DNA from: Ferrovibrio sp. MS7
Lineage (GTDB): Bacteria > Pseudomonadota > Alphaproteobacteria > Ferrovibrionales > Ferrovibrionaceae
DNA: 64,000 nucleotides
Reading direction: 5' to 3'
NCBI RefSeq assembly: GCF_038404985.1
Contig: NZ_JBBKBA010000001.1
Location: 1,082,001-1,146,000 of the forward strand
In this document: positions 39,534-59,015 of the stretch, piece after piece
Layout of the letters: each line of letters begins with the position of its first letter
Numbering within the stretch: the first letter of the stretch is position 1
Position numbers and translations under genes: made by a program
Notes under the pieces: generated by a model
Seen by the model: only the letters and a program-made list of their open reading frames with translations
Database searches by the model: none
Told to the model about the DNA's origin: nothing

Positions 39534-40436
39534 TTACTTTTGCAGCTTGCGGTCCCAATAGGGTTCGGGGCCGTAGAGTGCGCGCAGATGGGCGATGAAC
39601 TGCGCCACGCCGGCCGGCACGAAATTGCCCGCTGGATGCACCGCGAAGATATTCACGTCCGTCGCACCGGGATAATCCGGCAGCACCACGTGCAGCCGCC
39701 CGGCGCGCAGGTCCGGCCCGATATCCCAGGTCGAGCGCAGCGCGATGCCCAAGCCCGCCAGCGCCAGTTCGCGCACCACCTCGCTGGAATTGGTGCGCAG
39801 GAAACTGGCGCCGCCGACACTCACCGGGCCATGACGGCCCTGCAGGCGCCAGGGCAGTTGCCCTTCGGCGGCAAGTAGGCGGTGGCGGCTGAGGTCCTTG
39901 AGCTTCGCCGGGGCGCCGAATTCGGCGAGATAGCCTGGCGAAGCGCAGAGCACGCGGCGGTTCGGTGCCAGCCGATGCCCGACCAGGCCGCCCTCCACCT
40001 GGGCCGAGACGCGGATCGCCAGGTCGATGCGTTCGGCCACCAGGTCGACATAGGCATCCGATAGGTCCAGCTCCACCTGCAGCTTCGGCCAGCGGTCGAG
40101 GAAGGGCTTGAGATGCGGCGCCACATGCAGGCGGCCGAACGAGGTCGGTGCGGTGAGGCGCAGCCGCCCGGCCGGATCGCCGGCGATATCGGCGACCAGA
40201 TTTTCCGCTTCCCGCGAGGCGGCGAGGATCGCCACCACGCGCTCGTAGAAACGCTGGCCGGCCTCCGTGGTGGCGAGCTTGCGTGTCGTGCGGTGCAGCA
40301 GCGTGGCGCCGAGCCGTTCCTCCAGCCGGGCGATGCGCTTCGACACCATGGCGGGGGAGAGATTCAACGCCCGCCCGGCGGCAGCCAGGCTGCCGCGCTC
40401 GATCACCTCGGCGAAAAGCTGATATTCGCGGTCCAT
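39534..40436 (-). CDS. LysR-family transcriptional regulator
   Basis: A 300-residue LysR protein with the HTH at residues about 3-60 ([45 protein letters not shown]) and an effector domain in the CrgA/AaeR style ([23 protein letters not shown]). It is divergent from glcB with about 110 bp between the starts, so control of malate synthase G by this protein is plausible but unproven. Confidence 0.9.
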
Positions 40437-40548
40437 GCCATTCTTTCTCTACAAGAACGACTGTATTCAATTATTGCCGTCTTTTGCAATAATGCATCCC
40501 TGGCTATGCTGCTTGCCGAACAGCGATTCTTGCCAGAGGAAAATGCAG

Positions 40549-42690
40549 ATGAGCCAGATCGTCGACCGCGCCGGGCTGAAAGTGGCAGCCTCGCTTGCCC
40601 GCTTCATCGAGGACAAGGCTCTGCCGGGCACCGGGCTGAACGCCGATGCCTTCTGGCGCGGCACCGCCGAGATCTTGGCGCGCTTCGCGCCCGAGAATCG
40701 CGCCCTGCTGGCCAAGCGCGACAGCCTTCAGGCCAAGATCGACGGCTGGCACAAGGCACGCCAGGGCCAGAAGCATGATGCGGTGGCCTATGAAGCCTTC
40801 CTGCGCGAGATCGGCTACCTGGTGCCTGAGCCGGCGCCGTTCAAGATCGCCACCGAAAACGTCGATGTCGAAATCGCCACCATGGCCGGGCCGCAGCTCG
40901 TGGTGCCGGTGCTGAATGCGCGCTTCCTGCTCAACGCTGCCAATGCGCGCTGGGGCAGCCTCTATGATGCCTATTACGGCACCGATGCGATTCCGCACGA
41001 GCCGGATGAGAAGAAGGGCTATGACCCGGTGCGCGGCGCCAAGGTGATCCAGAAGGCCAAGGCTTTCCTGGATGTCGCGGTGCCGTTGGCCGAGGGCAGC
41101 CATGCTGATGTTGCCGGCTGGTCGGTGTCGAACGGCCAGCTCAAGCCGGCATTGCAGAACCCGGCCGCCTTCGCCGGCTATCGCGGAGATGCCGCCAATC
41201 CTTCCGCCATACTGCTGAAGCATAACGGCCTGCATATCGAACTGGTGCTCGACCGCACGCATTCGATCGGCAAGGGCGACCCGGCCGGCCTCGCCGATGT
41301 GATCCTTGAGGCCGCGCTCACCACCATCGTCGATCTGGAAGACTCGATCGCCGCCGTGGATGCCGAGGACAAGGTGGAGGCCTATGGCAACTGGCTCGGG
41401 CTGATGCAGGGCAATCTCGAAGCCAGCTTCGAGAAGGGCGGCAAGACCATGACCCGCGCGCTGGAAGCCGACCGCACCTATAGCGCACCGGATGGCAAGC
41501 CGCTGACCCTGCCGGGCCGCTCACTGCTGTTCGTGCGCAATGTCGGCCACCTGATGACCAACCCGGCGATCCACCTGCCCGATGGCAGTGAAGTGCCGGA
41601 AGGCATCCTGGATGGCATCGTCACCAGCCTGATCGCGATCCACGACCTCAAGCGCCGGGGCAAGTTCACCAACAGCCGTGCCGGCTCGGTCTATATCGTC
41701 AAGCCGAAGATGCACGGGCCGGAGGAATGCGCCTTCACCAACCGGCTGTTCGATGCCATCGAAGACCTGCTCGGCCTGGCACGCCATACCGTGAAGGTCG
41801 GCGTGATGGATGAGGAGCGCCGCACTTCAGCCAATCTGGCGGCCTGCATTGCCGCCGTGCAGTACCGCATCGTGTTCATCAACACCGGCTTCCTCGACCG
41901 CACCGGCGATGAGATGCACACCTCGATGCTGGCTGGCCCGATGGTGCGCAAGGCGCAGATGCGCTCCAGCGCCTGGATCAATGCCTATGAGGCGCGCAAT
42001 GTCGCCATCGGCATCGCCTGCGGCCTTTCCGGCAAGGCGCAGATCGGCAAGGGCATGTGGGCGGCGCCCGACCGCATGGCCGACATGCTGGAACAGAAGA
42101 TCGGCCATCCGCGCACTGGCGCCAACACCGCCTGGGTGCCGAGTCCGACCGCCGCGACGCTGCATGCGACGCATTACCACATCGTCGATGTGTTCGCGCG
42201 CCAGGCCGAAGTGGCGAAACAGCCGGTGCCCGCGCTGGCCGACCTGCTCACCCTGCCGCTGGCCACGGGGCAGAATTTTTCCGAGCAGGATGTGAAGGAC
42301 GAACTCGACAACAACGCCCAAGGCATTCTCGGCTATGTGGTGCGCTGGGTAGATCAGGGCGTCGGCTGCTCCAAGGTGCCCGATATCCACGATATCGGCC
42401 TGATGGAAGACCGCGCGACCTTGCGCATTTCCTCGCAGCATATGGCCAACTGGCTGCTGCATGGCATCTGCACGGCTGAGCAGATTGAAGACTCATTCAA
42501 GCGCATGGCGGCCAAGGTCGATGCGCAGAATGCCGGCGATGCCGCCTATCGCCCGATGGCGGTGAATCCGGCCGCCAGCCTGGCGTTTCAGGCCGCTCGC
42601 GCCCTGGTCTTCGAGGGCATGCAGCAGCCCAACGGCTATACCGAGCCGCTGCTGCACGCCTTCCGCCAGAAGGTGAAGGCACAGGGGTAG
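40549..42690 (+). CDS. glcB: malate synthase G
   Basis: A monomeric malate synthase of 713 residues that condenses glyoxylate with acetyl-CoA to malate. Diagnostic blocks are [70 protein letters not shown] and [20 protein letters not shown]. The length agrees with isoform G (about 720), not A. ATG 40549 follows AGAGGAAA; a longer reading from 40435 crosses the promoter region. It is part of the glyoxylate-related stretch from 39.5 to 49 kb; no isocitrate lyase is seen. Confidence 0.96.
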
Positions 42691-42909: not shown

Positions 42910-45900
42910 CTAATCCAGCAGGCTTTCGAGCAGGCGCGCGACATGGATCGCGTGCCGTGACCAGTCGCCGCGCGTGCCATCGGCGATCTGGTGGCGGCAG
43001 CTTGTGCCGTCCGCGACGAGAATCGCTTCCGGCGCCTTGCGGATGGCCGGCAGCAGGCTCAGCTCCGCCATCTGCATCGACACGTCATAATGCTTGGCTT
43101 CAAAGCCGAAGCTGCCGGCCATGCCGCAGCAGGATGAGTCGATCAGTTCCGGCTTGGCACCGGGGATCAGTTTCAGCACATCCAGGATCGGCGGCACGGC
43201 GCCGAACGCCTTCTGATGGCAATGGCCATGCAGCAGGATCGGCTGTTCCACGCTCTTGAGCTTCGGGGCGAAACGGCCAGCCTTGGCTTCCGCGCTCAAG
43301 AATTCCTCCAGCAGCAGCGCCTTCGCGGCTACCGTTTTGGCCTTCTCGCCCAGCCCGAGCGACAGCGCTTCGTCGCGCAAGGTGAGCAGGCAGGAAGGCT
43401 CAAGTCCGACAATGGCGATGCCGGCTGTCGCGAAAGGCAGCAGCGCGTCGATCAGCGCCGAGACCTTTTCGCGCGCCTGATCGATCATGCCGGCGCTGAG
43501 ATAGGTCCGCCCGCAGCAATGCTGCCCACCGGACTTCTCGACCACATGCACGGCATAACCGGCATGATGCAGCACGCGGGCGGCGGCATGGCCATTCTCG
43601 GCCTCGAAATAGCCATTGAAGGTATCAACGAACAGCACGGCGGCTTTCGGTGCCGCGAGCGTCTTCGCGGCATCGGCATAGAGTGCCTGGTCGCGGCCTT
43701 GCCAGAAGGTGTCGCTGCGCCAGCGCGGCAGGCTGCGCCGGGCAGAAAAGCCGAGCAGTTTTTCCGAGGCCCAGGCGGCACCCGGTAGCCTGTCACGCAG
43801 ATTCGCCAGCCAGGGCAGGCGGCTCATGGTACCGGCATAATCCGGCAGATGCGCGATCAGCCGGTCCTTCAGGGTGAAGCCGTGGCGCGCCTTGTAATGG
43901 CTCTGGAATTCCAGCTTCATCTTCGCCATGTCGACGCCGGTCGGACAGTCGCGCTTGCAGCCCTTGCAGGAGACGCAGAGGTCCAGGCTCTCCGCCATCG
44001 CCTCGCTAGTGAAGGCATCGGGGCCAAGCTGGCCCGATAGTGCCAACCGCAAGGTGTTGGCGCGGCCGCGCGTCAGATGCTGCTCGTCGCGGGTGACGCG
44101 GTAGCTCGGGCACATGGTGCCGGCATCGAATTTGCGGCAATGGCCGTTGTTGTTGCACATCTCGACGGCCATGGCGAAGCCGCCGGTGACATCGCCGCCG
44201 GTACCCGGTGCTGTGGTCGCCTCGGTGACCGGATCGTTCTGCACATTCCAGTCCGACCAATCGAGATTGGTCTTCAGCGGCAGGCGCTGATAAGGCCGTG
44301 GGCTGCCCGGCGGCGGGAAGCGGAACAGCGCGCCGTCATCCATCTTTGGCGGATCGATGATCTTGCCCGGATTGAACAGGTTCAGCGGATCAAGCTGTTG
44401 CTTGATGGCGCGGAAAGCATCGTTCAGTTTCGGGCCGAACTGCCACTCGATCCATTCGCCGCGGCACAGGCCGTCGCCATGCTCGCCGCTATAGGCGCCC
44501 TTGTACTTGCGCACCAGGGCGGCGGCTTCCTCGGCGATGGCGCGCATCTTCGCGGCGCCGCCTTCGGCGCCGGCGCGGCGCATGTCCAGGATCGGACGCA
44601 CATGCAGCGTGCCGACGGAAGCATGGGCATACCAGGTGCCGCGCGTGCCATGGCGGGCGAAAACCTCGGTCAGCGCGTCGGTGTAATCGGCCAGATGCTC
44701 CAGCGGCACCGCGCAATCCTCGATGAAGCTCACCGGCTTGCCGTCGCCCTTCAGGCTCATCATGATGTTGAGGCCGGCCTTGCGCACCTCCCACAGATTC
44801 TTCTGCCGGGCCTCGTCGGGCATTTCCACTACGCTGCCCGGCAGGCCGAGATCGCCCATCAGTTCGACAAGCTGGCGCAGCTTCGGCAGCAAAGGCGCGC
44901 CGCTCTCGCCGGAGAATTCCACCAGCAGGATTGCTGCCGGCTGGCCGATCAGCGCGGTCTGCATCGTCGGGCGGAAAGCCGGATTGGCCAGCGCCAGTTC
45001 GATCATGGTGCGGTCGACCAGCTCCACCGCCGTCGGTCCCAGCTTCACGATATGCTGCGCGGCTTCCATGGCGGCGCGGAAGGTGGGGAAATTCACCACA
45101 CCCAGCACCTTGGCGCGCGGCAGGTCGGAAAGATTGAGCGTCAGGCTGCGCGTATAGGCCAGCGTGCCTTCCGAACCGACCAGCAGATGCGCCAGGTTGA
45201 CGCTGTTGTCGGTGGTGTAGGGCCGCTCGCTCTGACAGTCGAAGATGTCGAGATTGTAGCCGGCGACACGGCGCATCACCTTCGGGAAATTCGCCGCGAT
45301 CTCGCCGGCATGGCTGCGCGCCAGCGCCTCGACGAACAATGCAATGTCGCGTGCCTTGCCGCTCAAGTTGGGTAGCGGGCCGAAATCCACGGCGCTGCCA
45401 TCCGAGAGCCATGCCGACAGGCCGTGCACGTTATGCACCATGTTGCCATAGGCTATGGAGCGCGAACCGCAGGAATTGTTGCCGGCCATGCCACCCAGCG
45501 TCGCCTGCGCCGAGGTCGAGACATCCACCGGATACCACAGGCCATGTTTCTTGAGCGCGGCATTGAGGTGGTCCAGCACCATGCCGGGCTGCACGGTGAC
45601 GCGGCGGCGCGAGGTATCCAGCTCCAGGATGTCGCGCAGGTATTTCGAATTGTCGATCACCAGGGCGGTGCCGCTGGTGGTCTGGCCGCATTGGCTAGTG
45701 CCGCCGCCGCGCGCCAGGATTGGCAGCTTCATGTCGCGGGCAATGTCGATGGCCACCGTGACATCGCGCTCCGATTTCGGCACCAGCACACCGATGGGAA
45801 ACGCCTGGTAGATCGAGGCATCGGTGGCGTAGCGGCCGCGCGAGGCGAGGTCGAACATCACCTCGCCCTCGGTCTCGGCACGCAGGCGGCGTTCAAGCAG

Positions 45901-45939
45901 GTGGCTGGTATCGGTATGGGTCTGTGGGGCGGCAGACAT
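42910..45939 (-). CDS. FAD-binding and Fe-S-binding oxidoreductase, YdiJ/D-2-hydroxyacid dehydrogenase type
   Basis: A 1009-residue two-part protein. The N-terminal half is an FAD-linked oxidase (FAD_binding_4) with LPILARGGGTSQCGQTTSG and the GGMAGNNSCGSRSIAYGNMV block, then the FAD-oxidase C domain. The C-terminal half is GlpC-like, with an Fe-S motif CVSCKGCKRDCPTG and two CCG domains (HCCGRTYLSAG, SSCCGMAGSFGFEAKHY). This architecture and length match YdiJ, a D-2-hydroxyglutarate-type dehydrogenase that reduces the quinone pool. Glycolate or D-lactate are possible substrates given the glyoxylate setting. ATG 45939 (MSAAPQT) is preferred. Confidence 0.88.
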   Translation of the reverse strand: MSAAPQTHTDTSHLLERRLRAETEGEVMFDLASRGRYATDASIYQAFPIGVLVPKSERDVTVAIDIARDMKLPILARGGGTSQCGQTTSGTALVIDNSKYLRDILELDTSRRRVTVQPGMVLDHLNAALKKHGLWYPVDVSTSAQATLGGMAGNNSCGSRSIAYGNMVHNVHGLSAWLSDGSAVDFGPLPNLSGKARDIALFVEALARSHAGEIAANFPKVMRRVAGYNLDIFDCQSERPYTTDNSVNLAHLLVGSEGTLAYTRSLTLNLSDLPRAKVLGVVNFPTFRAAMEAAQHIVKLGPTAVELVDRTMIELALANPAFRPTMQTALIGQPAAILLVEFSGESGAPLLPKLRQLVELMGDLGLPGSVVEMPDEARQKNLWEVRKAGLNIMMSLKGDGKPVSFIEDCAVPLEHLADYTDALTEVFARHGTRGTWYAHASVGTLHVRPILDMRRAGAEGGAAKMRAIAEEAAALVRKYKGAYSGEHGDGLCRGEWIEWQFGPKLNDAFRAIKQQLDPLNLFNPGKIIDPPKMDDGALFRFPPPGSPRPYQRLPLKTNLDWSDWNVQNDPVTEATTAPGTGGDVTGGFAMAVEMCNNNGHCRKFDAGTMCPSYRVTRDEQHLTRGRANTLRLALSGQLGPDAFTSEAMAESLDLCVSCKGCKRDCPTGVDMAKMKLEFQSHYKARHGFTLKDRLIAHLPDYAGTMSRLPWLANLRDRLPGAAWASEKLLGFSARRSLPRWRSDTFWQGRDQALYADAAKTLAAPKAAVLFVDTFNGYFEAENGHAAARVLHHAGYAVHVVEKSGGQHCCGRTYLSAGMIDQAREKVSALIDALLPFATAGIAIVGLEPSCLLTLRDEALSLGLGEKAKTVAAKALLLEEFLSAEAKAGRFAPKLKSVEQPILLHGHCHQKAFGAVPPILDVLKLIPGAKPELIDSSCCGMAGSFGFEAKHYDVSMQMAELSLLPAIRKAPEAILVADGTSCRHQIADGTRGDWSRHAIHVARLLESLLD

Positions 45940-45950
45940 GACGGGGCGGA

Positions 45951-46640
45951 TCAAGCCTTGGCAGAGAGAGGATAGATTTCACCGGCGCGCAGCAATTCCA
46001 GCACCGCATCGCGCTTGCGCCGCAGATGCTGCATCAGCAATTGCCGCATGGCCGGGGCATCGCGGCGGCTCAGGGCTTCCACCATCTGCTCATGCTCGCG
46101 CACGGCTTCCGCCCACTTCGCCTCATTCTGGTTGGTGCGGAAGCGCAACGACTGCACGCGCGCATTGATGGCGCGGTAGGTATTGGTCAGAACCGGATTA
46201 CGCGCCGCGTTGTTGATCGCGGCATGAATTCGCGCATTGATGCGGTAATAGCCGGAAAGGTCGCGGCGCGCATAGCAGGCCATCATCTCATACTGCAATG
46301 CGCGCAGCTCGCTGAGCTCTGCATCGGTGATGCGCTCGGCGGCGAGTTCGCCGGCCATGCCTTCCAGCGTCGCCAACAGCTCGAAGGTGTTGATCACATC
46401 GTCTTCGGTCAGCTTCACCGCGATGGCGCCGCGATTGGGCAGCAGGTCCACCAGCCCCTCGGCGGCAAGCAGCTTGATCGCCTCGCGCAACGGCGTGCGC
46501 GACACGCCAAGCTTTTCGCAGAGTTCGCGCTCGTTCAGCTTGGCGCCAGGCTGGATCAATCCCTCCACCAGCATGGTGCGCAGCCGTGCCGCCACCTGGT
46601 CATGCAGGCCGAGGCGGGTGATCTCGACGATGTCTGCCAT
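45951..46640 (-). CDS. GntR-family regulator, FadR/FCD subfamily
   Basis: A 229-residue regulator with an N-terminal winged HTH (QVAARLRTMLVEGLIQPGAKLNERELCEKLGVSRTPLREAIKLLAAEGLV) and an all-helical FCD effector domain whose metal-binding residues include the His of RIHAAIN and the His in VREHEQM. FCD regulators usually sense organic acids. It lies between sgaA (23 bp upstream) and the YdiJ-like gene (12 bp downstream), so it probably controls this operon, perhaps through the TGCAT motifs upstream of sgaA. Confidence 0.9.
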   Translation of the reverse strand: MADIVEITRLGLHDQVAARLRTMLVEGLIQPGAKLNERELCEKLGVSRTPLREAIKLLAAEGLVDLLPNRGAIAVKLTEDDVINTFELLATLEGMAGELAAERITDAELSELRALQYEMMACYARRDLSGYYRINARIHAAINNAARNPVLTNTYRAINARVQSLRFRTNQNEAKWAEAVREHEQMVEALSRRDAPAMRQLLMQHLRRKRDAVLELLRAGEIYPLSAKA

Positions 46641-46662: not shown

Positions 46663-47850
46663 TCAGGCGGCGGCGCGGCTGGCGAGGAAATCCATCGCGG
46701 CCTGCACGCCGCCCTTGTTATGCGGAATCTTCGCCACGCCCAACGCCATTTCCACGCCGGCTAGTGCGCCGAGGATGGTGAGGTCGTTGGTATCGCCGAG
46801 ATGGCCGATGCGGAAAACCCGGCCGGTCACCTTGCCAAGCCCGGTGCCGAGCGAAATGTCGAAGCTGTTCAGCGCCACTTCGCGGAAATCGTCGGCATTC
46901 AGTCCCTCGGGCAGCAGAACGGCGGTGAGCGAGGAGGAATAATCCTCAGGCTTGCGGCAGAGAATTTCCAGGCCCCAGGCGGTGACGGCGCGGCGCGTCG
47001 CCTCGGCATGGCGGTCATGGCGGGCGAAGACATTCTCAAGCCCTTCCTCGTGCAGCATGTCGATGGCTTCGGCCAGGCCGTAGAGCAGGTTGGTGCCGGG
47101 CGTGTAGGGGAAGAAGCCGCGGGCGTTATGCGGCAGCATGTCCTCCCAGGCCCAGAACAGTTTCGGCATCTTCGAGGCCTTGGCCGCCGCCAGCGCCTTG
47201 TCGGAAAGCGCATTGAACGACAGGCCGGGCGGCAGCATCAGGCCCTTCTGCGAGCCGGAGATGGTGACATCGACACCCCATTCGTCATGGCGGTAGTCAA
47301 TCGAGGCGAGCGATGAAATCGTGTCCACCATCAGCAGGGCAGGATGCTTCGCCGCGTCGATGGCCTTGCGGATCGCGGCAATCGGCGAGACGCAGCCGGT
47401 CGAGGTCTCGTTATGCACGACGCAGACCGCCTTGATGGTGTGTGCCTTGTCCTCGCGCAGCCGTGCCTCTATCGCCTGCGGATCGGCACCGGTGCGCCAG
47501 TCGGAGGCGATGAACTCGGCCTCCAGGCCGAGCTTGCCGGCCATGTTCTTCCACAGCGTGGCGAAATGGCCGGTCTCGAACATCAGCACGCGGTCGCCGG
47601 GCGAGAGCGCATTGGCCAGCGCGGCTTCCCAGGCGCCGGTGCCGGAAGCCGGGTAGATGATCACCGGGCTGGCTGTCTTGAACACGGTCTTGATGCCGTC
47701 CAGCACCCGCTTGCCCAGCTTCTGGAAGTCGGGACCGCGATGGTCGATGGTCGGCATGTCCATGGCCCGCAGGATGCGGTCGGGCACCGGGGTCGGGCCG
47801 GGAATCTGCAGAAAATGGCGGCCGGCCTTGCGGGCTGCGTTGCTTGCCAT
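46663..47850 (-). CDS. sgaA: serine-glyoxylate aminotransferase (alanine-glyoxylate aminotransferase family)
   Basis: A fold-type I PLP enzyme of 395 residues that makes glycine and hydroxypyruvate from serine and glyoxylate in the serine cycle and photorespiration-like routes. Blocks are RHFLQIPGPTPVPDRILRAM, PASGTGAWEAALANAL, VHNETSTG and the PLP lysine in SGSQKGLMLPPGL. ATG 47850 fits the family N-terminus; a longer open reading extends to 48321 across the promoter. It starts the sgaA-gntR-ydiJ-like operon. Confidence 0.9.
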   Translation of the reverse strand: MASNAARKAGRHFLQIPGPTPVPDRILRAMDMPTIDHRGPDFQKLGKRVLDGIKTVFKTASPVIIYPASGTGAWEAALANALSPGDRVLMFETGHFATLWKNMAGKLGLEAEFIASDWRTGADPQAIEARLREDKAHTIKAVCVVHNETSTGCVSPIAAIRKAIDAAKHPALLMVDTISSLASIDYRHDEWGVDVTISGSQKGLMLPPGLSFNALSDKALAAAKASKMPKLFWAWEDMLPHNARGFFPYTPGTNLLYGLAEAIDMLHEEGLENVFARHDRHAEATRRAVTAWGLEILCRKPEDYSSSLTAVLLPEGLNADDFREVALNSFDISLGTGLGKVTGRVFRIGHLGDTNDLTILGALAGVEMALGVAKIPHNKGGVQAAMDFLASRAAA

Positions 47851-48054: not shown

Positions 48055-48492
48055 ATGACCGATCTGAGCCTTGCCGCCGCCCGCATCATTGTCGATACCG
48101 CGCTGTCCCATGCCCGGGGCGCCAGCCTGAAGCCGCTGGCCGTGGCGGTGCTGGATACGCGCGGTGCGCTGAAAGCCTTTGCGGCGGAAGACGGCACCAG
48201 CCTGAAACGGGCCGAAGTGGCGCAGGGCAAGGCCTCTGGCGCCCTGGCGCTGGGCATCGGCTCGCGCTCGATCTGCAAGCGCGCCAAGGAGCAGGATTAC
48301 TTCATCGCCGCCGTCAGCCATGTGGTTGGCGGGGCGCTGATCCCGGTGCCGGGCGGCGTACTGATCCGCGACAAGGCCGGTGTCCTGCTCGGCGCCGTCG
48401 GCATCTCTGGCGACACCTCCGACAACGACGAGGCGGCGGCCTTGGCCGGCATCCAGGCGGCGGGCCTGGTTGGCGATCCCGGCGTCGATTGA
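48055..48492 (+). CDS. GlcG/HbpS family protein
   Basis: A 145-residue protein of the GlcG/HbpS (DUF336) family: it starts with LSLAAARIIVDTALSHARGASLKPLAVAVLDTRGALKAF and ends with the block IPVPGGVLIRDKAGVLLGAVGISGDTSDNDE. GlcG is linked to glycolate oxidase operons and HbpS binds heme, but the enzymatic role is unclear. It is divergent from sgaA and is followed after 8 bp by the SDR-type dehalogenase candidate. Confidence 0.88.
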   Translation: MTDLSLAAARIIVDTALSHARGASLKPLAVAVLDTRGALKAFAAEDGTSLKRAEVAQGKASGALALGIGSRSICKRAKEQDYFIAAVSHVVGGALIPVPGGVLIRDKAGVLLGAVGISGDTSDNDEAAALAGIQAAGLVGDPGVD

Positions 48493-48500
48493 GGCCTGCT

Positions 48501-49175
48501 ATGATCCTGGAGGGCAAGCGAATCCTGATCACCCAGGCGGACACTTTCATGGGGCCGATGCTCTGCGCGGTGTTCCGCGAACAGGGCGCCACGGTGATCG
48601 CCGATGACCGCGCGCTGGCCGATCCGGCCTTGCCGGCGGAACTGGTGGCTTCTGCTGGCGACATTGATGTGCTGGTCGCCAATCTGGCGATCCCGGCGCC
48701 CGCAACGCCGGCAGCGCAGGTCGGCGAGGAAGAATGGCGCGAGGCGTTTGCCCATATGGTCGATCCGCTGCCCCGTCTCTGCCGCGCCGTGCTGCCGCAG
48801 ATGCTGGCGCGGCGCGCGGGCAAGATCTTGCTGATGGGCAGCGCCTCGGCTTTGCGCGGCATGCGCAATGCCTCCACCTACAGCGCGGCGCGCGGCGCGC
48901 AGCTTGCTTACATCCAGGCGCTCGGCGTGGAAGTGGCGGCACAGAATGTACAGGTCAACGCCATTGCACAGAACTTCGTCGACAACCCGACCTATTTCCC
49001 CGAAAGCGTACAGCAGAATCCGCGCTTCCAGGAGCGGCTGAAGCGCGAGGTGCCGCTGGGCCGGCTGGTGTCGCCGCGCGAGGATGCGAGCTTCGCCGCC
49101 TATCTCTGCAGTGATGCGGCGAATTGTTTCGTCGGTCAGATTTTCCCGGTCTGTGGCGGTTGGGCACCGCGCTGA
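48501..49175 (+). CDS. probable halohydrin dehalogenase (SDR-related, HHDH family)
   Basis: A 224-residue SDR-fold protein without the TGxxxGxG cofactor motif. In its place is T11-x4-F16-x-G18 (ITQADTFMG), the anion-pocket motif of halohydrin dehalogenases. The catalytic set is S114-x12-Y127-x3-R131 (GSASALRG, TYSAARG), that is Arg instead of the SDR Lys, again the HHDH signature. The later block NFVDNPTYFPESVQQNP resembles the HHDH segment after the beta-6 strand. These enzymes turn vicinal halohydrins into epoxides and ring-open epoxides with small anions, without NAD(P). The start could also be TTG 48489. A divergent SDR with other use is the alternative. Confidence 0.72.
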   Translation: MILEGKRILITQADTFMGPMLCAVFREQGATVIADDRALADPALPAELVASAGDIDVLVANLAIPAPATPAAQVGEEEWREAFAHMVDPLPRLCRAVLPQMLARRAGKILLMGSASALRGMRNASTYSAARGAQLAYIQALGVEVAAQNVQVNAIAQNFVDNPTYFPESVQQNPRFQERLKREVPLGRLVSPREDASFAAYLCSDAANCFVGQIFPVCGGWAPR

Positions 49176-49317: not shown

Positions 49318-50520
49318 ATGCCCTCGCCTGCGCTCAAGCGCGGCCTGTTTGCCGCATTCGCTCTTGCCACCACCGCCATTTCCGCGCCGAGCCTGGCGCA
49401 GGGCGTGAAGATCGGCGTGCTTAACGATCAGTCCGGCGTCTATGCCGATTACGGCGGCAAATGGTCGGTGGAAGCCGCGCGCATGGCGATCGAGGATTTC
49501 GGCGGCAGCGTGCTCGGTGGCAAGATCGAACTGATCGCCGCGGACCATCAGAACAAGCCCGATGTCGGCTCCAACATCGCCCGGCAATGGTACGATATCG
49601 ACGGCGTCGACATGATCACCGAACTCACCACCTCCTCGGTGGCGCTGGCGGTGCATGAACTTTCCAAGCAGAAGGGCAAGGTCGATATCGTGGTCGGCGC
49701 GGCCACTTCACGTCTTACCGGCGATGCCTGCCATCCGTTCGGCTTCCACTGGGCCTATGATACCCGCGCGCTGGCGGTGGGCACCGGCGGCGCCTTGACC
49801 AAGGAAGGCGGCGATACCTGGTTCTTCCTCACCGCCGACTACGCCTTCGGCTACCAGCTCGAGGAAGATACCTCGAAGATCGTCACCGCCTCGGGCGGCA
49901 AGGTGTTCGGCGCCGTGAAGCATCCGCTGAACGCCACCGACTTCGCCTCCTTCCTGCTGCAGGCGCAATCCTCCAAGGCCAAGGTGGTGGGGCTGGCCAA
50001 TGCCGGCGCCGATACGGTGAACTCGATCAAGCAGGCCGCCGAATTCGGCATCACCGCTGGCGGCCAGAAGCTCGCCGGCCTGCTCACCACGCTGGCGGAA
50101 GTGCATGGCCTCGGCCTGCAATCCGGCCAGGGCCTGGTGGTGACGGAGGGCTATTACTGGGACAATGACGACAAGTCGCGGGAATTCGGCGAACGCTTCA
50201 TGAAGCGCACCGGCCGCATGCCGAACATGATCCAGGCCGGCACATACTCGGCCACGCTGTCCTACCTCAAGGCGGTAAAGGCGGCGGGCAGCAAGGATGC
50301 CGCCGCTGTCTCGGCCAAGCTGAAGCAGTTGCCGGTGGATGATTTCTTCGGCCAGGGCGGCAAGGTGCTGCCGAATGGCCGCATGGTGCATGACATGTAC
50401 CTGTTCGAGGTGAAGAAGCCGTCCGAGAGCAAGAAGCCCTGGGATTATTACAAGAAGCTCGCCACCATCCCGGGCGACCAGGCCTTCTTCACGGTGGCCG
50501 AAAGCGGCTGCAAGCTGTAG
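49318..50520 (+). CDS. branched-chain amino-acid-type ABC transporter substrate-binding protein
   Basis: A 400-residue secreted binding protein with a signal peptide (residues about 1-27) and a type I periplasmic fold (VKIGVLNDQSGVYADYGGKWSVEAARMAIEDFGG, near residue 30). Blocks such as TWFFLTADYAFGYQLEEDT and the final YYKKLATIPGDQAF are typical of LivJ-like proteins. Such proteins bind aromatic or small organic acids as often as amino acids. The permease genes are absent nearby. AATCCCGGAGGAAAAC gives a strong ribosome-binding site. Confidence 0.9.
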   Translation: MPSPALKRGLFAAFALATTAISAPSLAQGVKIGVLNDQSGVYADYGGKWSVEAARMAIEDFGGSVLGGKIELIAADHQNKPDVGSNIARQWYDIDGVDMITELTTSSVALAVHELSKQKGKVDIVVGAATSRLTGDACHPFGFHWAYDTRALAVGTGGALTKEGGDTWFFLTADYAFGYQLEEDTSKIVTASGGKVFGAVKHPLNATDFASFLLQAQSSKAKVVGLANAGADTVNSIKQAAEFGITAGGQKLAGLLTTLAEVHGLGLQSGQGLVVTEGYYWDNDDKSREFGERFMKRTGRMPNMIQAGTYSATLSYLKAVKAAGSKDAAAVSAKLKQLPVDDFFGQGGKVLPNGRMVHDMYLFEVKKPSESKKPWDYYKKLATIPGDQAFFTVAESGCKL

Positions 50521-50584: not shown

Positions 50585-50893
50585 ATGATTCACGTTATCG
50601 CCGTCATCACCGCCAAGCCGGGCCAGCGCGCCGCTTTGCTTGACCTGTTCCGCGCCAATGTGCCGGCCGTGCTGGCGGAAGACGGCTGCATCGAATACGG
50701 CGCCGCCGTCGATATCGATGCCATCGGCCCGGCCCAGGCCCGCTTCGGCGAAGACAGCTTCGTGGTGATCGAGAAATGGGCCAGCATCGAGCATCTGCGC
50801 GCCCATGCGGTCGCCCCGCATATGAAGGAATACAGCCTCAAGGCCAAGGACCTGATCGCCAACCGCGCCATTCATGTGCTGGGTGCGGCCTGA
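50585..50893 (+). CDS. putative quinol monooxygenase, YgiN/ABM family
   Basis: A 102-residue ferredoxin-like domain. The start HVIAVITAKPGQRAALLDLFRANVPAVLAEDGCIEYG and the block FVVIEKWASIEHLRAH are typical of the YgiN group of cofactor-free quinol or aromatic monooxygenases. CGGAGGAAACCC precedes the start. It lies 3 bp before the DAO-type gene, so the two are co-translated; the substrate is not clear. Confidence 0.85.
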   Translation: MIHVIAVITAKPGQRAALLDLFRANVPAVLAEDGCIEYGAAVDIDAIGPAQARFGEDSFVVIEKWASIEHLRAHAVAPHMKEYSLKAKDLIANRAIHVLGAA

Positions 50894-50896
50894 GGC

Positions 50897-52075
50897 ATGA
50901 CGCGGCGGTATGACGTCGCCATCATCGGCGGCGGGGTGATCGGTTCGTCCGTCGCCTATCACTTGAAAACGCTCGATCCCGCCCTCTCGGTGGCGGTGAT
51001 CGAGCGCGATCCGACCTACCGCACGGCCTCCTCGGCGCTTTCCGCCTCCTCGATCCGGCAGCAATTCTCCACCCCGGTGAATATCGCCATCTCGCGTTTC
51101 GGCATCGACTTCCTGCGCCGCGCCAATGAGTACTTGAGCGTCGATGGCGAAATGCCACATCTCGGCCTCACCGAGCCGGGCTATCTCTATCTCGCCACGG
51201 ATGCCGGCGTGCCGGTGCTGCGCGAGAACAATGCCATTCAGCGCCAGGCTGGCGCCGATATCGCCCTGCTGGAACCGGCGGCGCTGCAGCAACGCTTTCC
51301 CTGGCTCAACACGGAAGACCTGGCGCTGGGCTCATTGGGCCTGCGCGACGAAGGCTGGTTCGATGGCTATGGCTTGCTGCAGGCCTTCCGCAACAAGGCC
51401 CGCGCGCTCGGCGCCGACTACATCACCGCCAGTGTCAGCGGTCTGGACATCAGCGCCGGCAAGGTCGAGGCCTTGCTGCTTGATAGCGGCGAGCGGATTG
51501 CCTGCGGCTTTGCCGTGAATGCCGCCGGGCCGCATGCCGCCGCCATTCTTGGTAAAGCCGGGGTGGATTTCCCGCTGGCGCCGGAGCGTCATTGCGTGTT
51601 CGTGTTCACCTGCAAGGAAACCCTGCCGGCCTGCCCGCTGGTGATCGATACCAGCGGCGTCTGGTTCCGCGCCGAAGGCTCGGGCTTCATCGCCGGGCCG
51701 CCGCCAAGGATGAGCGATACGCCCGAGCAGCAGGCATCACTGGAAGTCGATTACGGCCTCTATGAAGAGGTGCTGTGGCCGGCGCTGGCGCATCGCGTGC
51801 CGGCCTTCGAGGCGATCAAGTTCAGCAATGCCTGGGCGGGGCATTACGACATGAATCATTTCGACCATAATGCCATCATTGGCTTCGTGCCGGGCCATGG
51901 CAATTTCCTGATGGCGAATGGCTTTTCCGGCCATGGCATGCAGCAATCGCCAGCCGCCGGGCGTGGCATCGCCGAACTGATCCTGTTCGGTGCCTATCGC
52001 AGCCTGGATTTAAGCGAATTGGGGCCGGAGCGGCTGCTCAACAACCAGCCGATCATCGAGAAGAATATTATCTAG
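50897..52075 (+). CDS. FAD-dependent oxidoreductase, DAO family
   Basis: A 392-residue flavoprotein with the dinucleotide-binding start YDVAIIGGGVIGSSVAYHL (residues about 4-22). The middle and C-terminal DAO blocks FAVNAAGPHAAAILG and GFSGHGMQQSPAAGRGIAELI are visible. Members oxidise amino acids, sarcosine, dimethylglycine or similar amines and pass electrons to oxygen or to quinone. It follows the YgiN-like gene by 3 bp and ends before repeat B2. Confidence 0.85.
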   Translation: MTRRYDVAIIGGGVIGSSVAYHLKTLDPALSVAVIERDPTYRTASSALSASSIRQQFSTPVNIAISRFGIDFLRRANEYLSVDGEMPHLGLTEPGYLYLATDAGVPVLRENNAIQRQAGADIALLEPAALQQRFPWLNTEDLALGSLGLRDEGWFDGYGLLQAFRNKARALGADYITASVSGLDISAGKVEALLLDSGERIACGFAVNAAGPHAAAILGKAGVDFPLAPERHCVFVFTCKETLPACPLVIDTSGVWFRAEGSGFIAGPPPRMSDTPEQQASLEVDYGLYEEVLWPALAHRVPAFEAIKFSNAWAGHYDMNHFDHNAIIGFVPGHGNFLMANGFSGHGMQQSPAAGRGIAELILFGAYRSLDLSELGPERLLNNQPIIEKNII

Positions 52076-53931: not shown

Positions 53932-56121
53932 ATGACTGAACTCAAGCCGCTCTCCCGCCGTGGTTTTCTCGCCACTGCTGGTGCCGCCACCGCCGGGCTG
54001 ACGCTCGGTTTTCACATCCCCTTTGGTGAAGCCCAGGCGCAGGGCAGCATCCCGCCGGAAATCAATGCCTGGGTGGTGGTGAAGCCTGACGACACCGTGG
54101 TGATCCGCATTGCCCGCTCGGAAATGGGCCAGGGCTCGCTCACCGGCCTGGCGCAGCTCGTCGCCGAGGAACTGGAATGCAATTGGGCCAAGGTGACGAC
54201 GGAATACCCGACGCCGGGCCAGAACCTGGCGCGCAACCGAGCCTGGGGCAATTTCTCCACCGGCGGCAGCAGAGGCATCCGTGAGTCGCATGATTATGTG
54301 CGCAAGGGCGGTGCCGCCGCCCGCATGATGCTGGTGCAGGCCGCCGCCGAGCAATGGAAAGTGCCGGTGGCCGAATGCATGGCGGCCAACAGCGTCGTCA
54401 CCCATCGCCCCTCGGGCCGCACGCTGCGCTATGGCCAGCTCGCGGACGCCGCCGGCAAGCTGCCGGTGCCGACCGATGTGGCGCTCAAGGACCCGAAGGA
54501 CTGGAAGATTGCCGGCAAGCCGCTGAAGCGCCTCGATACGGTGGACAAGCTCACCGGCAAGCAGGTCTATGGCGCCGATCTGCAACTGCCCGGCATGCTC
54601 AATGCCGCGATCAAGGATTGCCCGGTCTTCGGCGGCAAGGTGAAGAGTTTCGACGCGGCCGCGGCGATGAAGAAGCCGGGTGTGAAGAAAGTCGTCCAGG
54701 TTGGCGATTCCGCCGTGGCGGTGATTGCCGATACCTGGTGGCGGGCCAAGACCGCGCTGGATGACATGGCCATCGTCTGGGACGAAGGCCAGCATGCCAA
54801 TGTCTCGAGCGAGAGCATTGCCGCCATGCTGCGCGAGGGCCTGGAGGCCAAGGAAGCCGCTGTCGGCAACAAGGTCGGCGAGGCGCTGACTGTATTGGCG
54901 CAGGGTGCCCCGGCGGGCGGCCGCATCGTCAGCGCCACCTACGGCTATCCGTTCCAGAATCACGCCACCATGGAGCCGATGAACGCGACGGCAAAGTGGA
55001 CGCCGGATTTCTGCGAGGTGTGGACACCGACGCAGAATGGTGAGGCGGCACTGGCTGCTGCCTCGGAAGCTTCCGGCCTGCCGCCGGCGAAATGCGAGGT
55101 CTACAAGCTGCATCTCGGCGGCGGCTTCGGCCGGCGCGGCGCGGTGCATGACTGGGTGCGCCAGGCGGTTGCCATCGCCAAGGAGATGCCGGGCGTGCCA
55201 GTGAAGCTCCTGTGGTCGCGCGAAGAAGACATGCTGCATGGCCGCTATCATCCGGTCACGCAATGCAAGATGACGGCGTCGCTGGATGCCAATGGCGATG
55301 TGCAGGCGCTGCATATGCGGATTTCCGGCCAGTCCATCGTTGCCGGCATCTTCCCGCAGAATATCCGCAACGGCGTCGATCCGGTGGTGTTCCAGGGCCT
55401 CAACCCGCCGGGGCCGGAAGCCTCCATCGGCTACAGCTTCCCGAACCTGCTGATCGACCATGCCATGCGCAACCCGCATGTGCCACCGGGCTTCTGGCGC
55501 GGGGTGAACCTGAACCAGAACACCATCTATCTCGAATGCTTCATTGATGAGCTGGCGAAAGCCGCGAACAAGGACCCGCTGGAATTCCGCCGCAAGCTGA
55601 TGGCCAACCACCCGAAGCACCGCGCGGTGCTGGAGGCGGTGGCTGAAAAGGCCGGCTGGGGCAAACCAGCGCCGGCCGGGGTGTTCCGTGGGCTGGCGCA
55701 ATGCATGGGCTTCGGTGCTTACGTGGCCGCCTGCGCCGAGGTCTCGGTGTCGAAGGAAGGCAAGGTGAAGGTGCATCGCATCGTCGCCTCCACCGATCCG
55801 GGTCATGTGGTGAATCCGCAGCAGGTCGAAGCGCAGATCGAAGGCTCCTTCGTCTATGGCCTCACGGCAGCGCTGCATGGCGAATGCACCGTGGCAAAGG
55901 GCCGTATCGAGCAGGAAAATTTCGATACCTACCCGATGATGCGGATCGACGAGATGCCGAAGGTGGAGAGCGTGCTGATTCCGTCCGGCGGTTTCTGGGG
56001 CGGCGTCGGCGAACCGACCATCGCCGTGGCGGCGCCGGCGGTGCTGAACGCGATCTTCGCCGCCACCGGCAAGCGGGTGCGCAGTCTGCCGCTGAAGAAC
56101 CACGATCTGAAATCCGCCTGA
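53932..56121 (+). CDS. iorB: molybdopterin-binding subunit of a molybdenum hydroxylase, isoquinoline 1-oxidoreductase beta type
   Basis: A 729-residue catalytic subunit with a Tat signal (SRRGFLATAGAATAGLTLGF, residues about 8-27), so it acts in the periplasm. It has the two repeated segments of IorB-type enzymes. Molybdenum-cofactor regions include LHLGGGFGRRGAVHDWVRQA and MRNPHVPPGFWRGVNLNQN, and the catalytic glutamate lies in WGGVGEPTIAVAAP. The enzyme hydroxylates an N-heterocycle or aldehyde, or oxidises another reduced substrate, and hands electrons to the 2Fe-2S subunit. The substrate is unknown. soxX starts 6 bp after its stop. Confidence 0.9.
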   Translation: MTELKPLSRRGFLATAGAATAGLTLGFHIPFGEAQAQGSIPPEINAWVVVKPDDTVVIRIARSEMGQGSLTGLAQLVAEELECNWAKVTTEYPTPGQNLARNRAWGNFSTGGSRGIRESHDYVRKGGAAARMMLVQAAAEQWKVPVAECMAANSVVTHRPSGRTLRYGQLADAAGKLPVPTDVALKDPKDWKIAGKPLKRLDTVDKLTGKQVYGADLQLPGMLNAAIKDCPVFGGKVKSFDAAAAMKKPGVKKVVQVGDSAVAVIADTWWRAKTALDDMAIVWDEGQHANVSSESIAAMLREGLEAKEAAVGNKVGEALTVLAQGAPAGGRIVSATYGYPFQNHATMEPMNATAKWTPDFCEVWTPTQNGEAALAAASEASGLPPAKCEVYKLHLGGGFGRRGAVHDWVRQAVAIAKEMPGVPVKLLWSREEDMLHGRYHPVTQCKMTASLDANGDVQALHMRISGQSIVAGIFPQNIRNGVDPVVFQGLNPPGPEASIGYSFPNLLIDHAMRNPHVPPGFWRGVNLNQNTIYLECFIDELAKAANKDPLEFRRKLMANHPKHRAVLEAVAEKAGWGKPAPAGVFRGLAQCMGFGAYVAACAEVSVSKEGKVKVHRIVASTDPGHVVNPQQVEAQIEGSFVYGLTAALHGECTVAKGRIEQENFDTYPMMRIDEMPKVESVLIPSGGFWGGVGEPTIAVAAPAVLNAIFAATGKRVRSLPLKNHDLKSA

Positions 56122-56127
56122 GGCGCC

Positions 56128-56571
56128 GTGGCGCTAAAGCGGTTCGGATTCCTGGTTCTTTGTTTGGCGTTGCTGGGCTTTCCTGCGCTGGCCCAGCCGG
56201 CATTGGCGCAGTCCGATGAACTGCGCCAGCCGCTGGAGCCGGGGCTTGTTGGCGATGCCACACGTGGCCGCGCCATCGTGGTCAGTCGGCAGAAGGGCCT
56301 CTGCCTGCTCTGCCATAGCGGGCCGTTCGCCGAGGAGCGCTTCCAGGGCAGTCTGGCGCCGAGCCTCGCCGGGGCGGGGGCGCGGTGGAATGTGGCGCAG
56401 TTACGGTTGCGTATCGCCGATTCCCGGGCGGTGAACCCGGACTCGCTGATGCCATCCTATTATCGCATCGAGGGCTTGCGCCAGGTCGGCGCGGCCTGGC
56501 AGGACAAGCCGATACTCACGGCGCAGGAGATCGAGGATGTGGTGGCATTCCTGGCCACGTTACGGGAGTAG
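56128..56571 (+). CDS. soxX: SoxX, monoheme c-type cytochrome of the Sox system
   Basis: A 147-residue exported cytochrome starting at GTG 56128 after GAGG. The signal peptide (residues about 1-28) is followed by the single heme motif CLLCH and a methionine-containing segment (NPDSLMPSYYRIEGLR) that supplies the axial Met. The fold and order match SoxX, which pairs with SoxA. It is 6 bp from iorB and 3 bp before soxY. Confidence 0.9.
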   Translation: MALKRFGFLVLCLALLGFPALAQPALAQSDELRQPLEPGLVGDATRGRAIVVSRQKGLCLLCHSGPFAEERFQGSLAPSLAGAGARWNVAQLRLRIADSRAVNPDSLMPSYYRIEGLRQVGAAWQDKPILTAQEIEDVVAFLATLRE

Positions 56572-56574
56572 GCC

Positions 56575-57015
56575 ATGCTGAAGGCGAACCGGCGCATGGT
56601 GCTGGCGGGCGCGGCCTCGCTGTTGCTGGTGCGGCCGTCTCTGGCCACACCCCAGGCGATGCAGGAAGCGATCCGCGCCCTGGTCGGCGAGGCGCCAATC
56701 CGGCCTGGCCGCATCAAGCTGGATATCTCGCCGCTGGTCGAGAATGGTAACAGCGTGTCGGTGACGCTCACTACCGACAGCCCGATGACCGCAGCCGATC
56801 ATGTGGCGAAATTCGCGCTATTCACCGAGGCCAATCCGCAGCCGCATGTGGCGGTGTTCCATCTCGGGCCGCGCTCGGGCCGCGCCATCGTCACCACGCG
56901 GATGCGGCTTGCCACCTCGCAGGCGGTCACCGCCCTGGCGGTGATGAGCGATGGCAGCGTGTGGTCAGACCGCGCCGATGTCATCGTCACGCTCGCCGCC
57001 TGCGTGGAGGGTTGA
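56575..57015 (+). CDS. soxY: SoxY-like sulfur carrier protein with altered C-terminus
   Basis: A 146-residue exported protein (signal peptide about residues 1-24) with the SoxY Ig-like body (KLDISPLVENGNSVSVTLTTDSPM, FHLGPRSGRAIVTTRMRLA). The family ends in GGCGG, where the cysteine holds the sulfur substrate. Here the tail reads AACVEG, so the cysteine is kept near the end but the glycine flanks are gone. The sequence shows this directly; whether it still carries sulfur is open. It lies 4 bp before soxZ. Confidence 0.85.
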   Translation: MLKANRRMVLAGAASLLLVRPSLATPQAMQEAIRALVGEAPIRPGRIKLDISPLVENGNSVSVTLTTDSPMTAADHVAKFALFTEANPQPHVAVFHLGPRSGRAIVTTRMRLATSQAVTALAVMSDGSVWSDRADVIVTLAACVEG

Positions 57016-57019
57016 GGTT

Positions 57020-57340
57020 ATGGCCCGCGCGCTGATCAACTTTCCCCGCAATGTGAAGAAGGGCGAGATCTTCGAGATCCGCACCCTGGTGTCGCATCCG
57101 ATGGAAACCGGCTACCGCCCCGGCCCCGATGGCCAGGTGGCGCCGCGCGACATCATCCGCCGTTTCACCTGCCATTACGGCGGCGAGGTGGTGTTCCACG
57201 CCGAGATGCATCAGGCCATCGCCGCCAATCCCTTCATCTTCTTCACCACGGTGGCAACAGAAAGCGCCATGCTCAGCTTCACCTGGGAAGGCGATAACGG
57301 CTTCAGCCAGACCGAGGCCATCGCGATCACTGTTACATGA
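57020..57340 (+). CDS. soxZ: SoxZ, partner of SoxY
   Basis: A 106-residue Ig-like protein, the usual length for SoxZ. RALINFPRNVKKGEIFEIRTLVSHPMETGYR at the start and GEVVFHAEMHQAIAANPF and the SFTWEGDNG block match the family. SoxZ lacks a signal peptide and is exported together with SoxY. ATG 57020 follows TTGAGGTT. It ends about 10 bp before soxA. Confidence 0.93.
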   Translation: MARALINFPRNVKKGEIFEIRTLVSHPMETGYRPGPDGQVAPRDIIRRFTCHYGGEVVFHAEMHQAIAANPFIFFTTVATESAMLSFTWEGDNGFSQTEAIAITVT

Positions 57341-57350
57341 AGCGTGGGAC

Positions 57351-58097
57351 ATGAAGCGTTTTGCCTGGCTGCTGCTGTTAGCCACGCCGGCCATTGCTGG
57401 CGATATTCCTTTGTCCGAACGCCGCTCCGGCTTTGATTTCATGACCGCCGAGACCCAGGCGATGCAGCGCGACGACACGCTCAATCCCGGCATGCTCTGG
57501 GTGCTGGAAGGCGAAGCGCTATGGCGCCAAGGCAATAAGCCCTGCGCTTCCTGCCATGCGGAAGGCAGCATGCAGGGCGTGGCGGCACGCTATCCGGCCT
57601 ATGATGAGAAAACACAGCAGCCCATCGACCTGGCTGGCCGGATCAATCGCTGCCGCAGCGAGAATCAGGGCCAGGCGGCCTATGCCCCGGAAAGCCGGCC
57701 ACTCCTCAGTCTTGCCGCCTATATCGGCCAGCAATCGCGCGGCCTGCCGATGGCGCCCCCCGAAGATCCCCGGCTCACACCTTTCATCGAGCGTGGCAAG
57801 GCGGCGTTCGAGCGCCGCATCGGGCAGCTCAATTTCTCCTGCGCGCAATGCCATGAGCAGAATTGGGGCCAGAAGCTCGGCGGCAGCCCGATACCCCAGG
57901 GCCATGCCAATGGCTATCCGATCTACCGCCTGGAATGGCAGGGGCTGGGATCGTTGCAGCGCCGGCTGCGCAATTGCATGATCGGCGTGCGCGCCGAACC
58001 CCATGCCTTCGGGGCGCCGGAACTGGTGGAGCTGGAGCTGTATCTTGCCCAGCGCGCCAAGGGCATGGCGGTGGAAACCCCGGCGGTGAGGCCCTGA
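57351..58097 (+). CDS. soxA: SoxA, diheme c-type cytochrome
   Basis: A 248-residue exported cytochrome (signal peptide about residues 1-16) with two heme sites, CASCH and CAQCH. The active-site cysteine that ligates the catalytic heme is in RLRNCMIGVRAEPHAFG, which aligns with the classic CYLGVRAEP block. SoxA with SoxX joins a sulfur substrate to the SoxY cysteine. In this operon soxB and soxCD are missing. ATG 57351 is preceded by AAGCGTGGGAC. Confidence 0.92.
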   Translation: MKRFAWLLLLATPAIAGDIPLSERRSGFDFMTAETQAMQRDDTLNPGMLWVLEGEALWRQGNKPCASCHAEGSMQGVAARYPAYDEKTQQPIDLAGRINRCRSENQGQAAYAPESRPLLSLAAYIGQQSRGLPMAPPEDPRLTPFIERGKAAFERRIGQLNFSCAQCHEQNWGQKLGGSPIPQGHANGYPIYRLEWQGLGSLQRRLRNCMIGVRAEPHAFGAPELVELELYLAQRAKGMAVETPAVRP

Positions 58098-59015
58098 TTG
58101 CGTGACATTACCGAACTTGGCCCATCGCCCTTCCTGAAAGGCTTCCGTCTCGCCGATGTGCCGGTGAGTGAGGAGATCACCTTGCGTGCCGCCATTAGCG
58201 GTTCGGGTCCGCCCCTGCTGCTGCTGCATGGCCATCCGCAGACCCATGCCACCTGGCACAAGATCGCGCCGGCCCTGGCCGAGCGTTATACCGTGGTCGC
58301 CGCCGACCTGCGCGGCTATGGCGATTCATCCAAGCCCGAGGGCGGCGAACGGCAGATCAATTATGCCAAGCGCGCCATGGCCGCCGACCAGGTGGCGCTG
58401 ATGCGGCTTTTGGGTTTCGGTCGTTTCGCCGTTGTGGGCCATGATCGCGGCGCCCGCGTGGCGCACCGCATGGCGCTGGATTGGCCGGAGGCCGTGGAAC
58501 GGCTGGCTTTGTTCGATATCGCTCCCACCGCCACCATGTATGCCCGCACCGACAAGGCTTTCGCCACGCGGTATTTCTGGTGGTTCTTCCTGATCCAGCC
58601 GGCGCCGTTCCCGGAAACCCTGATCCTCAATGATCCGGCCTTCTTCCTGCGCCATCATCTCAACGGCCAGAGCAAGACGCCGGGCGCCACGTCCGAAGCC
58701 ATCTTCGCCGAATACCTGCGCTGTTATCAGCGGCCCGAAACCATCCGTGCCATCTGCGAGGATTACCGCGCCGCCGCCGGCATCGACCTCGAGCATGACG
58801 CCGCCGATGCCGACAAGCGCGTCACCGCGCCGCTGCTGGCCCTGTGGGGCGGCAAGGGCACGGTCGGCGCACTCTATGATGTGCTGCAAACCTGGCGCGA
58901 CAAGGCGCTGGATGTGCGCGGCAGGCCGCTCGATTGCGGCCATACCTTGCAGGAAGAAGCGCCGGAAGCGACACTGGCGGCGCTGCTGGACTTTCTGAGT
59001 GGGGAAACGCGATGA
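58098..59015 (+). CDS. alpha/beta hydrolase related to haloacetate (fluoroacetate) dehalogenases
   Basis: A 305-residue alpha/beta hydrolase close in layout to fluoroacetate dehalogenases. The nucleophile is D116 in GHDRGAR, with both arginines of that motif kept. An acidic residue in LFDIAPT (D140) and the late GHTLQEEAPE supply the remaining triad members. The halide-side blocks YFWWFFLIQPAPFPE and CEDYRAAAG also match, but the His of the His-Trp halide pair is Phe here. Start TTG 58098 follows the soxA stop directly. An epoxide hydrolase-like or other esterase use remains possible. Confidence 0.75.
   Translation: MRDITELGPSPFLKGFRLADVPVSEEITLRAAISGSGPPLLLLHGHPQTHATWHKIAPALAERYTVVAADLRGYGDSSKPEGGERQINYAKRAMAADQVALMRLLGFGRFAVVGHDRGARVAHRMALDWPEAVERLALFDIAPTATMYARTDKAFATRYFWWFFLIQPAPFPETLILNDPAFFLRHHLNGQSKTPGATSEAIFAEYLRCYQRPETIRAICEDYRAAAGIDLEHDAADADKRVTAPLLALWGGKGTVGALYDVLQTWRDKALDVRGRPLDCGHTLQEEAPEATLAALLDFLSGETR

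Follow-up and report, generated by a model that had tools for sequence, protein, structure and literature searches.

We propose that a 224-codon gene of Ferrovibrio sp. MS7, located within a 64,000-nucleotide stretch of contig NZ_JBBKBA010000001.1 (the window, whose numbering is used throughout), encodes a D-type halohydrin dehalogenase (HHDH), a cofactor-free enzyme with SDR fold (Table 1). We put the probability of this assignment, which was made from the sequence and a structure model, at about 93%. It is based on the two motifs of the family, the lack of a cofactor motif, the identity to HheD2, a matching predicted fold, and the position of the protein in a well-supported clade of a phylogenetic tree.

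Table 1. Features of the window discussed in the text
Feature	Position	Strand	Basis or remark
FAD-linked oxidase with Fe-S domains, D-2-hydroxyacid or glycolate dehydrogenase-like	42910..45954	-	start uncertain
Malate synthase G	40435..42690	+	
GntR/FCD regulator	45951..46640	-	Pfam/NCBIfam context
Class V aminotransferase	46663..47850	-	best PDB match serine--glyoxylate aminotransferase 6pk1
GlcG/HbpS-like protein (PF03928)	48055..48492	+	Pfam; ortholog adjoins HHDH in G006 and G008
Putative D-type HHDH, 224 aa	48501..49175	+	T11/F16/G18 nucleophile-pocket motif; S114-Y127-R131 triad
Substrate-binding protein (PF13458)	49318..50520	+	Pfam; absent from the HHDH-ABM interval in G006 and G008
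ABM-domain protein (PF03992)	50585..50893	+	Pfam
FAD-dependent oxidoreductase, DAO family (PF01266)	50897..52075	+	best PDB match 1y56_B (sarcosine oxidase-type, 89 bits)
Consecutive genes for a molybdopterin-binding subunit, a cytochrome c and a SoxA-type cytochrome	53932-58097	+	directly before the next feature
Alpha/beta hydrolase, haloacetate (fluoroacetate) dehalogenase family	58098-59015	+	best PDB matches 4nvr, 3qyj, 9c9f

Sequence motifs and proposed chemistry

The open reading frame starts with an ATG at 48501 and its stop codon ends at 49175; a TTG at 48489 is a possible alternative start. Residues 11-18 of the product read TQADTFMG, which gives T11-x4-F16-x-G18, and further along the chain follows S114-x12-Y127-x3-R131, with arginine replacing the lysine of the S-Y-K motif. 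Both fit the definition of HHDHs as T-X4-F/Y-X-G plus S-X12-Y-X3-R that is given in the available parts of two publications (PMC4989007, PMC11976700). The residues and the exact spacing are those of the original prediction, and a pattern scan of the protein also agrees with its statement that the NAD(P) glycine motif is missing and Lys is replaced by Arg: neither the glycine motif [TS][GAS]x3[GAS]xG nor the S-Y-K motif was present, and the T-G-x3-G-x-G and Y-x3-K of classical NAD(P)-dependent SDRs were likewise missing.

A chance match of the motifs can be ruled out by shuffling and by a scan of called proteins. Under a loose rule (start of motif 1 within residues 1-80, motif starts 80-150 apart), 8 of 200,000 shuffled versions of the protein contained both motifs. 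The gene calls of 81 loci comprise 1169 proteins; 63 of these carry both motifs, and every one of the 63 is the HHDH gene itself, which the caller recovered in 71 of the 81 loci. T11, F16, G18, S114, Y127 and R131 are invariant in an alignment (A4) of 34 sequences chosen from the 81. Seven SDR-type rows from outside the HHDH group served as controls (two each from the window and L003, and single rows from L002, L004 and L096): the HHDH motifs were found in none of them, the glycine motif in five and S-Y-K in six. A further short match of 35 residues in L041 had neither the HHDH motifs nor the glycine or S-Y-K pattern.

An enzyme of this kind would convert vicinal haloalcohols reversibly to an epoxide and a halide, and it would also open epoxides with small anions. 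By analogy with HheC, S114 would hold the substrate oxygen and Y127 would take the hydroxyl proton, its pKa being lowered by R131, while the halide would leave into a pocket built from the loop with T11, F16 and G18 and from the backbone of N158-F159-V160. We take these last three residues to be the counterparts of N176-Y177-L178 in HheC. For HheC itself, it is described that Tyr deprotonates the hydroxyl group, that Arg lowers the pKa of this Tyr, and that a halide pocket replaces the cofactor site (passages in PMC4989007).

Relatives, tree and predicted fold

A phmmer search against the PDB ranked 7b73 (HheD2, 357 bits) and 8xxb (HheD8, 302 bits) at the top, followed by HheB (187 and 184 bits), 6a41 (126 bits) and the HheA-type entries (88-82 bits). 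Ordinary SDRs appear first at 81 bits, and the entries for HheC (69 bits) and HheG (63 bits) come under many SDRs of the FabG type, so that it is the motifs, not overall similarity, that link the protein to the A, C and G types. The identity is 72% to HheD2, over about 220 residues, and 64% to HheD8, for which the chain compared is that of a triple mutant according to the 8xxb title in the Foldseek list. The value for HheD2 falls inside the range reported for D-type enzymes, since HheD19-HheD38 have 57-95% identity to the verified HheD-HheD6 according to the accessible part of PMC4989007, which also states that 19 selected enzymes identified through these motifs proved to be active.

The AlphaFold model (mean pLDDT 83.7, pTM 0.83) has an SDR-type fold. 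When it was used as a Foldseek query, chains of 7b73 took ranks 1-4 (TM 0.90, again with 72% identity); 8xxb was also listed, and HheB came next. The pLDDT is below 50 at residues 115-119, 158-161, 185-187 and 218-224, and these segments include parts of the active site and of the pocket loops.

A 45-row tree places the protein in a 23-row clade with HheD2 and HheD8 (support 99/94), apart from the HheB clade and away from all five SDR rows. These five rows (those of L002 and L004 partial) are the extent of the SDR sampling in a tree built without HheA and HheG, and a long-branch warning applies to them and to HheC. As far as the five rows go, then, the protein does not sit inside the NAD(P)-dependent SDRs, and together with the match to HheD2, the motifs and the missing cofactor motif this placement upholds the original call of a halohydrin dehalogenase. 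The 7b73 row and the gene of L068 (marine gamma proteobacterium HTCC2207) are both at branch length 0. The trio that includes the window protein stands among beta- and gammaproteobacterial sequences, nearest to Herminiimonas by path although the fork is open, and this position in the sequence tree makes transfer of the gene from the beta-/gammaproteobacterial side plausible.

HheD2 from HTCC2207 resembles the window protein most, being also of the same length class, but its host belongs to another class and its gene lies between genes for a GNAT and a DnaT-domain protein (L068), whereas the window gene sits in a run with GlcG, ABM and DAO genes. HheD8 shares both motifs and is more diverged. 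HheB (4zd6; 46% identity by Foldseek) also has both motifs, but with Tyr at the centre of motif 1 and in a different clade. HheC of Agrobacterium radiobacter has the same catalytic triad and the same motif 1, but only about 26% identity and a longer chain.

Family size and distribution

A scan of named genome contigs yielded at least 591 matching stretches, at least 512 of which encode a relative. The best 80 of these relatives, which were kept, come mainly from beta- and gammaproteobacteria and have 70-87% identity. Both motifs are found in all 80 genes, if motif 1 is sought in frame including up to 60 residues upstream. With at least 512 relatives in one scan, and with a numbering that already reaches HheD38 in the part of PMC4989007 available, the view of a small family with few wild-type members, which accompanied the original prediction, is out of date.

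In its own genome, the gene is the only close match, identity dropping to 31% for the second of 51 matches, and it occurs in 3 of 18 genomes of the host family, the own one included. Samples of the class and of the phylum, again counting the own genome, gave a match in 16 of 385 genomes at 1e-35 (B-type and A/C-type rows included) and in 4 of 398 genomes at 1e-50, respectively.

Some HHDH-like proteins deviate in their motifs. L017 and L149-L153 (from 1501) encode proteins whose motif 1 reads T-x4-W-x-G, with Trp at the F/Y position, and whose S-x12-Y-x3-R is intact. Of 10 genomes of one family, 6 have such Trp-motif proteins; a match is present in 8 of the 10, the other two having F. In the tree, L017, L018 and L020 of this group cluster with PDB 6a41. 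The Trp-motif proteins would escape the published filter T-x4-F/Y-x-G, and F12W is not among the active HheC variants listed in the available excerpt of PMC11976700. Inspection of the surroundings of the Trp-motif genes revealed no gene set worth following. L021 (1501-2967, minus strand) has two tandem HHDH-like genes, the second with T-x4-S-x-G and S-x12-Y-x3-Q, so that both motifs are altered.

Genes around the dehalogenase in the window

The GlcG/HbpS-like gene ends, with its stop codon, 8 bp before the ATG of the HHDH gene. A GAGG at 48491-48494, six bases 5' of this ATG, overlaps the GlcG stop codon, and for this reason we infer that translation of the two genes is likely to be coupled. 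In two cases, the annotation of the neighbours stays below model cut-offs: the aminotransferase, whose start was set at the Met common to L129, reaches 470 of 650 bits for BhcA, and the FAD-linked oxidase reaches 511 of 1350 bits for the YdiJ model. Downstream of the DAO gene, a dihydroorotase gene follows on the opposite (minus) strand. Of the genes annotated between 40435 and 53229, none was identified as an epoxide hydrolase.

Base composition around the locus indicates no clear island. Farther along, the AT skew reaches 0.366 at 61000-61999, compared to absolute values of at most 0.120 in the other 25 one-kb steps of 36000-61999.

The haloacetate dehalogenase-like gene lies 9 kb downstream of the HHDH gene. 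Its product keeps the nucleophile motif HDRGAR and has FWWFF where 3qyj has YHWFF; the His of the latter, presumably the fluoride-pocket His, is thus a Trp. Orthologs with 77-78% identity are present in G006 and G008, and further matches of 45-58% in all 10 genomes of the genus.

Conservation of the gene neighbourhood

Within the genus, the order GlcG-HHDH-ABM-DAO is kept in G006 and G008, without the PF13458 binding protein, and the aminotransferase, GntR and oxidase genes are linked to it there as well. In G006 (L129), a TRAP transporter separates GlcG from the aminotransferase, and a CaiB-type CoA-transferase separates the aminotransferase from GntR; G008 has similar spacing in this stretch. 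Transport genes accordingly differ, TRAP in L129 versus the PF13458 binding protein in the window. At the thresholds used, matches to HHDH, DAO, GlcG, aminotransferase and oxidase are all confined to one set of three among the 10 genomes of the genus. Dihydroorotase, which has a match in 7 of the 10, is 85-86% identical among these three genomes and 71-74% identical in the others with a match, which makes the three one sub-clade and their shared gene set a single event. G005 is 72% complete and also lacks dihydroorotase, so that absence of the HHDH setting from this genome says little. In other genera of the host family, GlcG relatives (51-57%) are found in three genomes and DAO relatives (57-60%) in one, all without HHDH. 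In G011 (L131, 9160-13083), dihydroorotase and malate synthase G are in tandem, and the genes lying between the two in the window are missing there.

Across the 81 loci, the GlcG, ABM, DAO, aminotransferase, GntR and oxidase genes accompany HHDH in two, the window and L026. Both belong to this genus, and L026 is the same contig as G006:C10 and hence no separate case. These neighbours were found in none of the 79 loci outside the genus, 18 of which are shorter than 10 kb. The GlcG-like neighbour to which the original prediction drew attention is real, but was seen with HHDH in just these two loci. A relative of the PF13458 binding protein occurs in L029, more than 5 kb from HHDH.

For the genes next to HHDH, only those within 600 bases were considered (72 upstream, 73 downstream), and 6 and 10 of these, respectively, were dropped before tallying, most of them short; the downstream call in L026, antisense to its ABM gene, was among them. 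The largest Pfam families were GNAT upstream (9 of 66) and DnaT downstream (8 of 63). Both sets correspond to SAR92-type loci that include the HheD2 locus, as judged from sequence clusters and a Pfam check of L068. ABM proteins adjoin HHDH in 2 of the 63 downstream cases, one of them L038. The tallies cover the 25 commonest of 100 upstream and 69 downstream families, so that a rare family such as epoxide hydrolase could lie outside them, and they are rough, since for 10 of the 81 loci the caller missed HHDH and some of its other ORFs were wrong. An operon conserved throughout the family is rejected on these data: sharing of neighbours is limited to small groups, the SAR92-type loci being one.

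Discussion

The identification of the HHDH is sound and unsurprising, given a solved structure nearby and a family now known to be large. That the protein is an NAD(P)-dependent SDR which merely resembles the dehalogenases seems to us very improbable. Pfam names only SDR models for it, the NCBIfam models among the matches listed (25 of 181) are all SDR models, and the genome has 50 further SDR-type matches. However, these NCBIfam models score at most 109 bits against cut-offs of at least 215, the control SDRs lack both HHDH motifs, and motifs, tree and identity to HheD2 together rule out an ordinary SDR. A different question is what a genuine dehalogenase does in the cell. It is quite possible, if somewhat less than an even bet, that the protein has the fold and the in vitro competence of an HHDH but another task, for example the opening or isomerization of a natural epoxide. 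The available text of PMC4989007 speaks for this, as it counts only two HHDH genes then known in an operon with an epoxide hydrolase gene and states that further functions of HHDHs cannot be excluded, and so does the diversity of the genes adjoining the 80 related loci, where even the commonest families account for few cases. Yet our data indicate no particular alternative reaction, and the invariance of the motif residues in 34 sequences speaks for retained chemistry.

A more specific reading would have the HHDH feed C2/C3 halohydrins into the glyoxylate metabolism of the locus, from halohydrin via epoxide, diol and hydroxyacid to glyoxylate and malate. The hydroxyacid oxidase, the glyoxylate-type aminotransferase, malate synthase G and GlcG around the gene are in line with this, as are the linkage of the seven genes from GlcG to the oxidase in G006 and G008 and the haloacetate dehalogenase-like protein downstream. 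We nonetheless consider it improbable. The co-occurrence in the genus is one event, GlcG and DAO relatives exist in other genera of the family without HHDH, these neighbours were found in none of the 79 loci outside the genus, the transport genes differ, and the annotated genes nearby include no epoxide hydrolase. Such a GlcG-HHDH module would differ from the setting of the HheC gene, which is in an operon with an epoxide hydrolase gene (available part of PMC11976700). Among literature titles on halohydrin dehalogenase with glyoxylate or operon, none shows a link between HHDH and glyoxylate. The most economical guess for the role of the D-type HHDH is accessory handling of halohydrins or epoxides.

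Of our findings, only the glyoxylate-type setting has some novelty, and with one evolutionary event behind it, it is no more than a lead. In its full form, it would be a module of a sub-clade of the genus, in which a D-type HHDH is coupled in translation with a GlcG-like protein and channels natural halohydrins or epoxides into a hydroxyacid/glyoxylate pathway, and we rate this as improbable. With this gene, the D-type enzymes gain a well-supported member, and the idea of a small family is corrected. Should the linkage to glyoxylate-type genes be functional, it would offer a testable natural role for a family studied mostly for biocatalysis, and the module, if true, would give the HHDH family a physiological setting.
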